Shown: piece after piece, positions 7,096 to 40,424 of the stretch
How the letters are laid out: each line of letters begins with the position of its first letter
How positions within the stretch are numbered: position 1 is the first letter of the stretch
IMG/VR virus record: IMGVR_UViG_3300010313_000123
Location: 1-44,275 of that record
Source: a virus
DNA length: 44,275 nt
Direction: 5' to 3' (one strand)
Translations under genes and position numbers: made by a program
The notes under the pieces: generated by a model
Databases searched by the model: none
What the model was told of the DNA's origin: nothing
What the model saw: the letters and a program-made list of their open reading frames with translations, nothing else

Positions 7096-7262
7096 CGCAT
7101 TTCGGACAGTAATGTACCCAAAGCTGGCTGGAATTTTTCGAGTAGATTTGTATCAATTACAACGTATTCTTCCTGCGTCAGAAGCCCTTTTTCAAGAAGT
7201 GCTTTGGCCATCGAAATGGCTACCTGATAGCGCTTTTCAGCTTGAAACTGTATCTCAGTCAT
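7092..7262 (-). CDS. Small SHOCT-domain protein (56 aa)
   Basis: A short gene read by hand: ATG at 7262-7260, stop at 7094-7092. The product runs MTEIQFQAEKRYQVAISMAK, then a SHOCT-type motif (ALLEKGLLTQEEYVVID) ending EMR. SHOCT motifs are short helical hairpins found as tails or as free-standing small proteins in phages and are thought to mediate oligomer contacts. Its start overlaps the stop of the upstream zinc-finger gene by 8 nt, so they are coupled. A SHOCT protein beside tandem serine recombinases is a recurring clostridial arrangement, which suggests (inference) a recombination directionality or accessory role. Confidence 0.7.
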   Translation of the reverse strand: MTEIQFQAEKRYQVAISMAKALLEKGLLTQEEYVVIDTNLLEKFQPALGTLLSEMR

Positions 7263-7677
7263 GTGACTCACCGCCTCTAAAGCGAGCAGCGATATAGCAG
7301 TTGTGGCAGCAATATTTGCGGCTGGAATTACCGTAGGCCGTGAACAGGTTCCCGCAGTAGGCGCAGGAAAAGGAGTATACCGCTTTTCGTTTGACCTGTT
7401 CCGGGTGGGTGTTCCACCATTGTTGGCGGCAGTCTGTGGAGCAGAACTTCAGCTTTTTTCTGCCTGGAATCTGATGTAACGGATTGCCACAACATTGGCA
7501 GAAGCTCTGGTCCGACGTGATTCGAGCATTGCTTTGTGCTTTGACTCCAGCAAGATCGTGAGCGCGGCAGTATGCCTTTACATTATCCTTTGTGAGACCG
7601 ACCGCCTTGGCAATTGTCGTATATCCATAACCGTCATGACGCATGGCGGTAATTCTCTCTTTTTGTTCATTAGTCAT
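7255..7677 (-). CDS. HTH plus zinc-finger protein heading the recombinase operon (140 aa)
   Basis: N-terminal sigma-region-4-like helix-turn-helix (ERITAMRHDGYGYTTIAKAV then GLTKDNVKAYCRAH, residues 6-40), followed by two zinc-binding clusters: C60-Q-C62-C63 with C78/C82, and C100-x2-C103 with C118/C122. It resembles small regulators found before clostridial phage serine recombinases. ATG 7677 is preceded by TTGGAGGACAAGCG, and that ribosome binding site can pair with the upstream leader at 7720-7734. Likely role: control of the recombinase operon or of excision (inference). Confidence 0.7.
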   Translation of the reverse strand: MTNEQKERITAMRHDGYGYTTIAKAVGLTKDNVKAYCRAHDLAGVKAQSNARITSDQSFCQCCGNPLHQIPGRKKLKFCSTDCRQQWWNTHPEQVKRKAVYSFSCAYCGNLFTAYGNSSRKYCCHNCYIAARFRGGESHD

Positions 7678-7678
7678 C

Positions 7679-7748
7679 GCTTGTCCTCCAATCTGAGAAC
7701 TTCAGTCCTCACTACCCAATGGAGGTGAACAAGCCTTTTGAACGAAAA
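7679..7748 (-). promoter_or_regulatory. Three-copy leader element, copy A (recombinase operon)
   Basis: On the - strand TTTTCGTTCAAA (7748-7737), ten variable bases, then ACCTCCATTGGGT (7726-7714). CCTCCA (7725-7720) and GCTTGT (7734-7729) can pair with TGGAGG (7690-7685) and ACAAGC (7684-7679), which form the Shine-Dalgarno region of the gene at 7677; a TCA bulge separates the two half-helices. Between the arms lies a 7-bp hairpin TGAGGAC-TGAA-GTTCTCA (7711-7694). This predicts a closed ribosome binding site. See copies B and C. Confidence 0.65.
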
Positions 7749-7751
7749 AGC

Positions 7752-7795
7752 AAAAAAATAATGCCTACCGAAAGAAGGATCTCTCAGTAGGCATT
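7752..7795 (-). terminator. Rho-independent terminator of the late/lysis operon
   Basis: On the - strand AATGCCTAC (7795-7787) pairs with GTAGGCATT (7768-7760), then ATTTTTTTG. It lies just after the amidase stop and ends only 3 nt before leader copy A begins, so transcription of the recombinase operon needs read-through or a new start inside the element. Confidence 0.85.
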
Positions 7796-7805
7796 AAGTG
7801 GAGTG

Positions 7806-31840: not shown

Positions 31841-31943
31841 ATGGGGTAACCTCGATGCATGTCATATATAGAACTTTTCTTAGAGCTATTTTTTTAGTCC
31901 TTAAGAGACTTTTTGTATATGACCTTAATCGAGGTTACCCCAT
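31841..31943. repeat. 28-bp inverted repeat around a 47-nt AT-rich centre
   Basis: Arms 31841-31868 and 31916-31943 match at 25 of 28 positions, with 16 outer bases perfect (ATGGGGTAACCTCGAT). The centre holds AGTCCTTAAGAGACT, nearly a palindrome itself, and long T/A runs. It fills the gap between the primase-helicase stop and the VRR-NUC start. Candidates: replication origin next to the replicative helicase, a transposon-derived mini-element, or a transcript-processing hairpin. Confidence 0.7.
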
Positions 31944-34549: not shown

Positions 34550-34969
34550 TTAAACCTCCTCGCAGTTTTCATTAAAGTAGCGTAAGCGGTAGTTCTTCCA
34601 CTTGGCTCTCTTGATTTCAGCCGACATACCGGCTGAGATGGTGCTGCCGAACACCCAGACCTCTGTACATTTGCTCATTAGGGCGTTGCCGAAGAATAGC
34701 CCAAGCTGGCGTTCGGCTGGAATGTCGTCGTTCAAAAACTGTGGAAATAGCAAATGCGGCGCAATGGGAATGAAGCCTTTGTCAACGGCGAAGCGGCTGT
34801 AGCGCTGTGCAGCCTTTACGTTTCCTTCTACATCTCCAGAAAAGGGAGAGCAGATATAGACAATTGGCCTGAATGCCCGAAGCGCCTGTTCTTCTTTTTC
34901 GATAGCAGACAATGCTTCGTAGGTGGTTGGGTCGTAGTAACCCTCGCTGTTAAATTTATCAATGCTCAT
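34550..34969 (-). CDS. DUF4406-like / nucleoside 2-deoxyribosyltransferase-like protein (139 aa)
   Basis: Start ATG 34969, after TGGAGGTCAAA. Core motifs IVYICSPFSGDVEGNVKAAQ, RYSRFAVDKGFIPIAPHLLF and EVWVFGSTISAGMSAEIKRA are the Rossmann-like pattern of DUF4406 and relatives of nucleoside deoxyribosyltransferases, which cleave N-glycosidic bonds of nucleosides. The actual substrate is unknown. It heads the primase operon and its ribosome binding site is predicted to be closed by leader copy B. Confidence 0.72.
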   Translation of the reverse strand: MSIDKFNSEGYYDPTTYEALSAIEKEEQALRAFRPIVYICSPFSGDVEGNVKAAQRYSRFAVDKGFIPIAPHLLFPQFLNDDIPAERQLGLFFGNALMSKCTEVWVFGSTISAGMSAEIKRAKWKNYRLRYFNENCEEV

Positions 34970-35045
34970 TTTGACCTCCAATCCGGGCGGGCTTTTTGTC
35001 CACCTCTATTACCCAATGGAGGTCAAAAATAGGTTTGAACGAAAA
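34969..35045 (-). promoter_or_regulatory. Three-copy leader element, copy B (primase operon)
   Basis: On the - strand TTTTCGTTCAAA (35045-35034), ten variable bases, ACCTCCATTGGGT (35023-35011). TTTTGACCTCCA (35028-35017) is perfectly complementary over 12 bp to TGGAGGTCAAAA (34980-34969), which includes the Shine-Dalgarno and the A of the start codon of the DUF4406-like gene. An inner GGTGG/CCGCC hairpin (35004-34986) lies between the arms. Confidence 0.7.
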
Positions 35046-38952: not shown

Positions 38953-39253
38953 CGTTCAGTCCCTCCACATCTGCAAGCAGTGCTTTATAGTTGGCCGGGT
39001 CAATACCGGACAGCTTATCAGCACCGTACTTCTGGAGCAGAGAGCGAATCTGAGCGGTGAATCCAGCGCGGGACTTGTTCGCAAGGATTGCTCTAACCGC
39101 TTCCAGCGTAAGTACCGGTTCGGTGGGTGTAGGTTCTGGCGCTGGTTCATTGGTGCTGAACTGCTCAGCTAGCCAATTTGCGGCTTCGTTAATAGCTGCA
39201 GCTGCGCTGCGTAGTTCTTCGATGGTCATGGCCAGGTCGCTCATATTGCTCAT
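38942..39253 (-). CDS. Small phage protein (103 aa), unknown
   Basis: MSNMSDLAMTIEELRSAAAA, INEAANWLAEQFST, a Pro/Glu linker, then LEAVRAILANKSRAGFTAQI, RSLLQKYGADKLSGID. Recurrent clostridial phage protein preceding DUF2800; helical N-terminus and a C-terminal SAP- or lid-like helical domain. Function unknown. It overlaps both neighbours. Confidence 0.68.
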   Translation of the reverse strand: MSNMSDLAMTIEELRSAAAAINEAANWLAEQFSTNEPAPEPTPTEPVLTLEAVRAILANKSRAGFTAQIRSLLQKYGADKLSGIDPANYKALLADVEGLNDAS

Positions 39254-39404
39254 GTGCTATTCCTCCTTCCTTGGATTGGCTCTGTCCGGCGAGCAAGGTC
39301 AATTTTCTTGCCAGCCGCATGGATACAACGCTGATCGCAGTAAGAACATCTACGAGTTCATCATCTGCAGCGCAGCTCTGTGGTCTTGTCTGTGCCTTTT
39401 GCAT
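39189..39404 (-). CDS. Small phage protein heading the early operon (71 aa)
   Basis: Start ATG 39404, 6 nt after AAGGAGGTG. The first 45 residues (ELVDVLTAISVVSMRLARKL, TLLAGQSQSKEGG) are conserved-looking and helical. The last 20 residues run 65 nt into the next gene in another frame and look non-conserved (HDHRRTTQRSCSY). Unknown function. Its ribosome binding site is predicted to be closed by leader copy C. Confidence 0.6.
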   Translation of the reverse strand: MQKAQTRPQSCAADDELVDVLTAISVVSMRLARKLTLLAGQSQSKEGGIAHEQYERPGHDHRRTTQRSCSY

Positions 39405-39487
39405 TTCTTTCACCTCCTTGGAAGGAGCGCTTGTCGTTTTGCTCTTTCCACTACCCAATGGAGGTGAGAATGGTGTTTGAACGAAAA
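39405..39487 (-). promoter_or_regulatory. Three-copy leader element, copy C (early operon)
   Basis: On the - strand TTTTCGTTCAAA (39487-39476), ten variable bases, ACCTCCATTGGGT (39465-39453). CACCTCC (39466-39460) pairs with GGAGGTG (39417-39411), and after a 2-nt bulge TTCT (39470-39467) pairs with AGAA (39408-39405) up to the base before ATG 39404. Between them TGGAAAGAGC (39450-39441) and GCTCCTTCCA (39428-39419) form a 9-of-10-bp inner hairpin. Confidence 0.65.
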
Positions 39488-39490
39488 TCA

Positions 39491-39534
39491 GGAAAAAAGA
39501 TTTTCTCCGGCCACCAATTTTGGCAGCCGGAGAA
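39491..39534 (-). terminator. Rho-independent terminator after the sigma-like gene
   Basis: On the - strand TTCTCCGGC (39534-39526) pairs with GCCGGAGAA (39511-39503), with an inner CCAAAATTGG, then AATCTTTTTTCC. It lies 15 nt after the sigma-like gene and 4 nt before leader copy C. Confidence 0.85.
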
Positions 39535-39548
39535 GGATGGACAAGAGA

Positions 39549-40076
39549 TTAGATGTAGTCGCGTAGGAGTTCCCGCAATGCATCAAAAGCTTTTTTCTTC
39601 TTGTAGTTGATGGTTGATTGCCGAGAGATACCCATTATGGCTGCTATTTCGCGTTCAGACTTTTCCTGAAGTAGAAGCTTGCAGATGCGGCGACCGTCGG
39701 GATCAAGCTCGTCCAATTTGCAGATAAGGGTGTTAAGTAGTTCGCGTTCCTCTAAGATGGACTGAGCGCTGGGAGTATCGTCCGCCAAGTCATCGAGCCA
39801 GCTCTTTTCGTTGCCGTCCTCGTCAGTAACGGTGTAATCAAGGGAAAGCTCATCGCCAGCCTTGTGAAAACGGCAGGTCCAACAATCCATATCACAAAGG
39901 TACCGCTTGTTTGCTGGGCAGACACAGCGGCCGTGCTCCTGTTGCCTGCGGCGATAGGCATTGATATCGCGGTAATAGTTGTCGTAGTCGGTCTTGCTGA
40001 CTGGCACCCACTGGTGAAGGTCCTTGAGGTAGATTTTGCGTTCGTTGGATTGGTTCTGATTGTCGTGCTTTGACAT
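39549..40076 (-). CDS. Sigma-70 region-4-like phage regulator (175 aa)
   Basis: N-terminal basic region with a cysteine cluster (RCVCPANKRYLCDMDCWTCR, residues about 50-69) that may bind zinc. C-terminal half resembles sigma factor region 4: LLNTLICKLDELDPDGRRIC, KLLLQEKSEREIAAIMGISR, QSTINYKKKKAFDALRELL. First gene of the phage - strand block, its own transcription unit (terminator after it), with the Shine-Dalgarno GGAGGAA locked in a 13-bp hairpin. Candidate for recognising phage-specific promoters. Confidence 0.8.
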   Translation of the reverse strand: MSKHDNQNQSNERKIYLKDLHQWVPVSKTDYDNYYRDINAYRRRQQEHGRCVCPANKRYLCDMDCWTCRFHKAGDELSLDYTVTDEDGNEKSWLDDLADDTPSAQSILEERELLNTLICKLDELDPDGRRICKLLLQEKSEREIAAIMGISRQSTINYKKKKAFDALRELLRDYI

Positions 40077-40117: not shown

Positions 40118-40424
40118 GAGCTGCTCAGCTGAAAAAGGCAATAAAAGCCCGACCGCAGTCCAACACAGATTTCTCCGTTTCGGATAGCAGCTTCCTGTTC
40201 AGTAGTCAGCTGTTTGATATTTGGTTGTTCACCTCGCTGCGCTGAACCATCCGTGATCAGTGGATGCGCATCGAGGTGATTTCAAATGACATGAGCGTTT
40301 TTTGTGACTGGAAAAGTGAGTTTATGACTTTTTATAAACAACATAGTCGGTAAGAGTAGATTTTTACCTTAAGATGATGTATAATTAAATAGTCAATACC
40401 CACGTAGAGAACACAGATGAGTAA

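Follow-up and report, generated by a model that had tools for sequence, protein, structure and literature searches.

A structured leader module before replication and accessory genes of gut Clostridia phages, a candidate cis-acting RNA

INTRODUCTION

Type III toxin-antitoxin systems of the ToxI-like kind carry tandem structured RNA repeats upstream of an endoribonuclease toxin gene. In phage T4, a single phage factor, RegA, acts on about 30 mRNAs at their translation initiation regions (PMC3014915). At the DNA level, the NrS-1 primase-polymerase recognises TTTGGTTA and GTGG/GTGA on single-stranded DNA (PMC8718748). Phages of the Candidatus Heliusviridae type are reported to be widespread in the human gut. 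We found no description of the timing of gene expression in these phages, and the words motif, promoter and riboswitch are absent from the main text of the Heliusviridae paper.

Here we analyse a leader element that occurs three times, always on the minus strand, in a virus record of 44,275 bases; this whole stretch is referred to as the window. The phage is placed with the Candidatus Heliusvirales gut phages on the basis of its nucleoside 2-deoxyribosyltransferase (NDT) relatives and its gene order. Comparison of relatives indicates that the element is a real and widespread leader module of gut Clostridia phages and a candidate cis-acting RNA.

MATERIALS AND METHODS

The core model used on the window (R1) describes sequence only and has no structure term. 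An initial set of about 70 distinct elements from motif scans grew to 167 distinct matches once all loci were included. Among the motif-collected copies, 98 were parsed just before a Shine-Dalgarno sequence (SD) and start codon on the sense strand, and these form 33 lineages at 75% identity; 31 motif-collected lineages were used in the SD-flank extension test. The motif search pattern fixes the core and thereby biases the anti-SD test, so leaders were fetched through their downstream proteins instead (65 NDT loci, 80 loci of the 71-aa protein and 80 of the HTH protein). Removal of near-identical leaders left 52 long and 10 minimal ones. In the pairing tests each leader's own partner strands are compared with swapped partner strands, and strand-reversed sequences serve as controls.

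RESULTS

The three leader copies

Each leader has the same order of parts: TTTTCGTTCAAA (TTTTCGTTCAAAA in copy A), a free segment, ACCTCCATTGGGTA, a hairpin, the SD and the start codon. The minus strand of the window contains exactly three occurrences of ACCTCCATTGGGTA, and the core model has three matches only (Table 1), the next best scoring 5.9 bits. Copy A precedes a 140-aa zinc-ribbon HTH-like gene (7255-7677). Copy B lies between the stop codon of the family-A DNA polymerase gene polA (35050) and a DUF7768/NDT-like gene (34550-34969), the relatives of which are annotated as NDT; a D5/PriCT primase-helicase gene is found further on. Copy C directly follows a sigma-70-region-4-like gene (39549-40076) and precedes a 71-aa gene (39189-39404). 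One phage carries the same module before replication operons (NDT/primase and the operon of the 71-aa gene) and before an HTH gene. The copies reported by a first-pass annotation of the letters alone are confirmed, each with its inner hairpin P2, and the pairings claimed for them can be written out as letters. Their fold z-scores are only modestly low (-2.1, -3.4 and -1.7 for copies A, B and C).

Table 1. Positions of leader parts and terminators in the window, and of array loci in related genomes
Feature	Position	Strand	Basis or remark
Leader copy A	7675..7743	(-)	core model 42.8 bits
Copy A block 1 GTTCAA	7738..7743	(-)	kept in relatives; T-rich TTTTTC just upstream
Copy A variable segment, 12 nt, constant length	7726..7737	(-)	
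Copy A core CCTCC + ATTGGGTA	7713..7725	(-)	
Copy A inner hairpin P2 TGAGGAC-TGAA-GTTCTCA	7694..7711	(-)	P2 compensation across relatives
Copy A Shine-Dalgarno TGGAGG	7685..7690	(-)	sequence; ATG 7677-7675
Intrinsic terminator immediately upstream of copy A	7759..7796	(-)	17 pairs + T run
Leader copy B	34967..35040	(-)	core model 35.7 bits
Copy B variable segment + core CCTCC	35018..35034	(-)	two alternative partners
Copy B ATTGGGTA	35010..35017	(-)	
Copy B inner hairpin P2 GGTGG/CCGCC	34986..35004	(-)	
Copy B SD region TGGAGGTCAAAA, complementary to 35028-35017	34969..34980	(-)	sequence + fold
Leader copy C	39402..39482	(-)	core model 40.0 bits
Copy C inner hairpin P2 TGGAAAGAGC/GCTCCTTCCA, one A-C mismatch	39419..39450	(-)	
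Copy C Shine-Dalgarno AGGAGG	39413..39418	(-)	sequence
Intrinsic terminator immediately upstream of copy C	39503..39534	(-)	14 pairs
Array locus in L178	5925-6262		
Array locus in L165	2902-3400	reverse	
Array locus in L164	5355-5815		

Two other features of the window were recorded. An Rfam DUF2800 RNA (RF02960) is found at 40122-40279 on the minus strand with 136.6 bits; it precedes the sigma-70-region-4-like gene, and no DUF2800 gene follows it directly. Just downstream of the primase-helicase gene lies an imperfect inverted repeat (31841-31943, ATGGGGTAACCTCGA...) with 42-nt arms that are 81% complementary.

Distribution of the family

The element is found in Candidatus Heliusvirales-type phages and in Clostridia prophages, where it precedes at least five gene families. 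Leaders collected through proteins also sit before an SD and start codon. Comparison of the relatives gives the order block 1 (often GTTCAAA), 12 free bases, a conserved YNTCC-AKTGGRWA core, P2, SD and start codon; a search with block 1 and TTGGGTA in which the core was left free returned only random matches. In the NDT relatives L275, L276, L278 and L282 the element is absent and the NDT start codon stands close behind the polA stop, which shows the element to be a removable module. The covariance models of Rfam 15 give no match at the three copies (for copy A, at the gathering threshold only), none in the array loci described below, and none in 20 divergent relatives up to E=1. The leader family thus appears to be new in being absent from Rfam 15 where tested; earlier computational detection, for instance in a microbiome RNA survey (PMC8040213), is possible.

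The inner hairpin P2

P2 is the sole structure conserved throughout the relatives. Its stem sequence turns over completely and the pairing is retained: own against swapped strands give z=-10.5 over 52 protein-collected lineages (reversed controls -1.5 and -2.0), and the compensation is also present in motif-collected SD-type copies (z=-7.6). The compensatory variation lies here and not where it had been proposed. Mismatches within P2 show no excess of G-U (3, against 5 A-C), so P2 alone is no proof of an RNA rather than a DNA palindrome. A constitutive mRNA leader, in which P2 stabilises or shields the message without any switching, would account for a single conserved structure at the 5' side of the SD and for the absence of the element at the same locus in L275-L278 and L282. 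It leaves the conserved block 1 and core unexplained, and the arrays likewise, and we regard it as improbable.

Variable segment and the Shine-Dalgarno flank

The first-pass annotation held that the variable bases co-vary with the SD region of their own gene. The individual pairings in the window are largely borne out. In copy B, TTTTGACCTCCA (35028-35017) is complementary to TGGAGGTCAAAA over 12 bp as part of the predicted fold, and in copy A GCTTGT and CCTCCA, with a 3-nt bulge, pair with TGGAGGACAAGC just as the predicted fold has it. In copy C, CACCTCC pairs with GGAGGTG, whereas the further TTCT/AGAA pairing forms only around a bulge, and the fold contains just part of it. The complementarity of these three copies is not to be read as covariation, because the partner of the variable bases changes with unbiased homologues. 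A match of the bases outside ACCTCC to their own gene is not general: in the 31 motif-collected lineages the contiguous extension is 0.90 bp for own and 0.57 bp for swapped segments (p=0.04), and most lineages mismatch at the first position. Swapping the variable segment leaves the predicted occupancy and accessibility of the SD unchanged (p=0.11). Protein-collected leaders give z=-2.1 for pairing with the SD flank (p=0.02 pooled, controls -0.5; p=0.38 for the B family), and no single position of the flank stands out clearly in them (0.48 vs 0.43, 0.41 vs 0.26 and 0.38 vs 0.38 are examples). Most homologues carry a variable segment that is not complementary to their start region, an outcome that the annotation itself had set against its proposal. 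On the letters compared here, the reported covariation seems at best a weak tendency.

Core letters and SD occlusion

In the predicted folds of the three window copies the SD is paired with the upstream anti-SD, and this pairing depends on the core. Replacement of the core by random 5-mers raises the predicted SD accessibility from 0.11 to 0.35 (p=1e-9). Pairing of the SD by the fixed core is thus plausible, as a prediction, for the copies of the window. The full anti-SD pairing, with z=-2.7, is no better than its reversed controls (-2.1/-2.4) and is not evidence by itself. Several minimal HTH-type relatives consist of a pure anti-SD/SD hairpin (L426, L425, L445, L458, L471, L473, L428 and L421), such as CACCTCCA:TGGAGGTG in L426 and ACCTCCAGT:ACTGGAGGT in L473.

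The core letters of unbiased lineages are CCTCC (21), TGTCC (21), TCTCC (9), TTTCC (5) and others. Many protein-collected relatives combine a TGTCC core with a normal GGAGG, so SD pairing is not general, and with TGTCC or TTTCC in about half of the unbiased relatives anti-SD gating is not a defining feature of the family. Among motif-collected copies, CCTCC is relaxed to TGTCC, TGTCA or TGACC in 18 of 42 filed without an SD and in 1 of 32 with one (p=9e-5), a contrast that is approximate, since some of the 42 are SD copies missed by the parser; leaders with both TGTCC and GGAGG, which came to light later, weaken it. Occlusion of the SD, as in the window copies, is one use to which the module is put and does not define it.

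A competing long hairpin in the NDT leaders

The variable segment and core of copy B have an alternative partner besides the 12-bp SD flank, namely the inner segment (TTTTTG:CAAAAA and ACCTC:GAGGT). In NDT leaders the pairing of the variable segment with its own inner segment gives z=-6.0 (controls -1.5 and -0.8), a second place where compensatory variation holds, and the long hairpin contains 13 G-U against 2 A-C mismatches, an RNA-like bias in which related rows are counted separately. A clean compensatory example is GGGCTTTGC:GCAAAGCCC in L274 versus GGACTTTGC:GCAAAGTCC in L319. The long hairpin consumes bases of P2 and of the core and so excludes both P2 and core-SD pairing, which makes two competing folds. 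Outside the NDT family the same hairpin, pooled, is no better than reversed controls.

Competing folds of this kind, supported in B-type leaders only, are also what a metabolite riboswitch or other ligand-binding RNA would use, with core and P2 as the aptamer and the SD pairing as the expression platform. The conserved unpaired core beside a compensated helix and a possible YCA:TGG pseudoknot fit such an RNA, but its targets would be unrelated phage genes with no metabolic pathway, the core letters drift between lineages and the pseudoknot letters do not covary; we consider it quite improbable. A third interaction between TTCAA of block 1 and TTGGG had also been suggested. The letters are conserved without covarying, and the pairing is often broken where a relative has different letters. 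A UUCAA:UUGGG pseudoknot was therefore rejected, the exceptions being disruptive and covariation lacking.

Arrays in Oscillospirales elements

Several Clostridia/Oscillospirales genomes (L178, L164, L165 and L179) contain degenerate intergenic copies of the motif at a spacing of about 60 nt. These arrays have no SD, and P2 of the array copies is compensated (z=-4.4). In L178 the array lies upstream of a primase-like gene, with a divergent HTH gene on its other side; the other arrays occupy comparable intergenic stretches. Tandem copies upstream of primase-like genes would suit a DNA-level replication or priming signal in which the hairpin and GTGG/TTGGGTA are read by the element's primase and the RNA features are incidental. 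The site recognition by the NrS-1 enzyme is a precedent, and the mismatches of P2 without G-U bias agree with it. We nevertheless hold this to be very unlikely, for single copies lie in the sense orientation right at start codons, the long hairpins of B leaders do carry a G-U bias and the stem sequences of P2 vary freely.

Terminators and transcription

Strong terminator stems precede 29 of the 39 HTH-type leaders, 20 of the 35 C-type leaders and only 1 of the 29 NDT leaders, and they nearly always end 9-29 nt before block 1. In the window, terminators precede copies A and C; copy B, 10 nt behind polA, has none. No sigma-70-like promoter was found between terminator and leader in the regions scanned for copies A and C. 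The main rival to an RNA acting in translation is that the conserved blocks are a phage promoter or operator, read for instance by the sigma-70-region-4-like protein, and that P2 is a protective hairpin at the 5' end of the mRNA. Terminators so close to block 1 mean that the element may have to start transcription itself; the 12-nt spacing is constant, no sigma-70-like promoter was found near A and C, and the sigma-region-4-like gene is immediately upstream of copy C. Against this, P2 starts 1-2 nt after TGGGTA, and in minimal relatives the SD follows after 0-8 nt, so TGGGTA cannot be the usual -10 element; that assignment was rejected, since the minimal copies leave no usual start distance. 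A sigma-factor promoter would need its -10 element suitably spaced ahead of the structure that is transcribed, and TGGRWA failed this test; block 1 alone may be a promoter element. The B copies moreover lie within an operon, right behind polA and almost without terminators, and their variable:inner pairing shows the G-U bias. Taken together, we judge a promoter or operator unlikely.

DISCUSSION

We favour a function of the leader module at translation initiation as the most likely reading, with confidence a little short of even. The idea of a translation-gating RNA survives in part: the comparison supports a structured leader at the ribosome binding site, but through P2 and the B-type long hairpin and not through the SD flank, where the support had been claimed.

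For a leader acting in translation, the conserved core held beside P2 may form the recognition site of a putative trans-acting factor, most likely an RNA-binding protein encoded by the phage or element. Such a factor would coordinate translation initiation across replication and accessory genes. Because CCTCC of the window copies can pair with the SD, these leaders probably keep translation off or low by default. In leaders of the copy-B family, formation of the variable:inner hairpin would exclude P2 and release the SD from the core, a possible two-state switch. More tentatively, the whole could amount to a phage-wide post-transcriptional regulon in which one factor reads a single module before replication and accessory operons, the polA-NDT version is bistable and the arrays in the primase leaders of related integrated elements serve as an amplifier or titration sponge; we regard this wider scheme as doubtful. 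A compensated leader module repeated before replication and accessory genes offers a testable handle on expression timing in Heliusviridae-type phages.

Among known systems, T4 RegA is similar in that here too a single phage has one shared site at the start codons of several of its replication and accessory genes. RegA sites, however, are rich in A+U, lack structure and overlap the AUG or lie next to it, while the present leaders are structured, lie upstream of the SD and have a conserved G-rich core. Simple SD-sequestering hairpins resemble the window copies, where CCTCC pairs with GGAGG, and the minimal relatives are exactly such hairpins; the present family differs in that its inner hairpin is independent and its core conserved, and the anti-SD core is missing from about half of its members. 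The Rfam DUF2800 RNA is likewise a leader RNA within the same phage, but its sequence and structure are unrelated to the three copies. The Oscillospirales arrays recall ToxI-like loci in that structured, RNA-like units are repeated in tandem ahead of a gene; their units are degenerate, of about 60 nt, and stand before primase-like genes rather than an endoribonuclease toxin.
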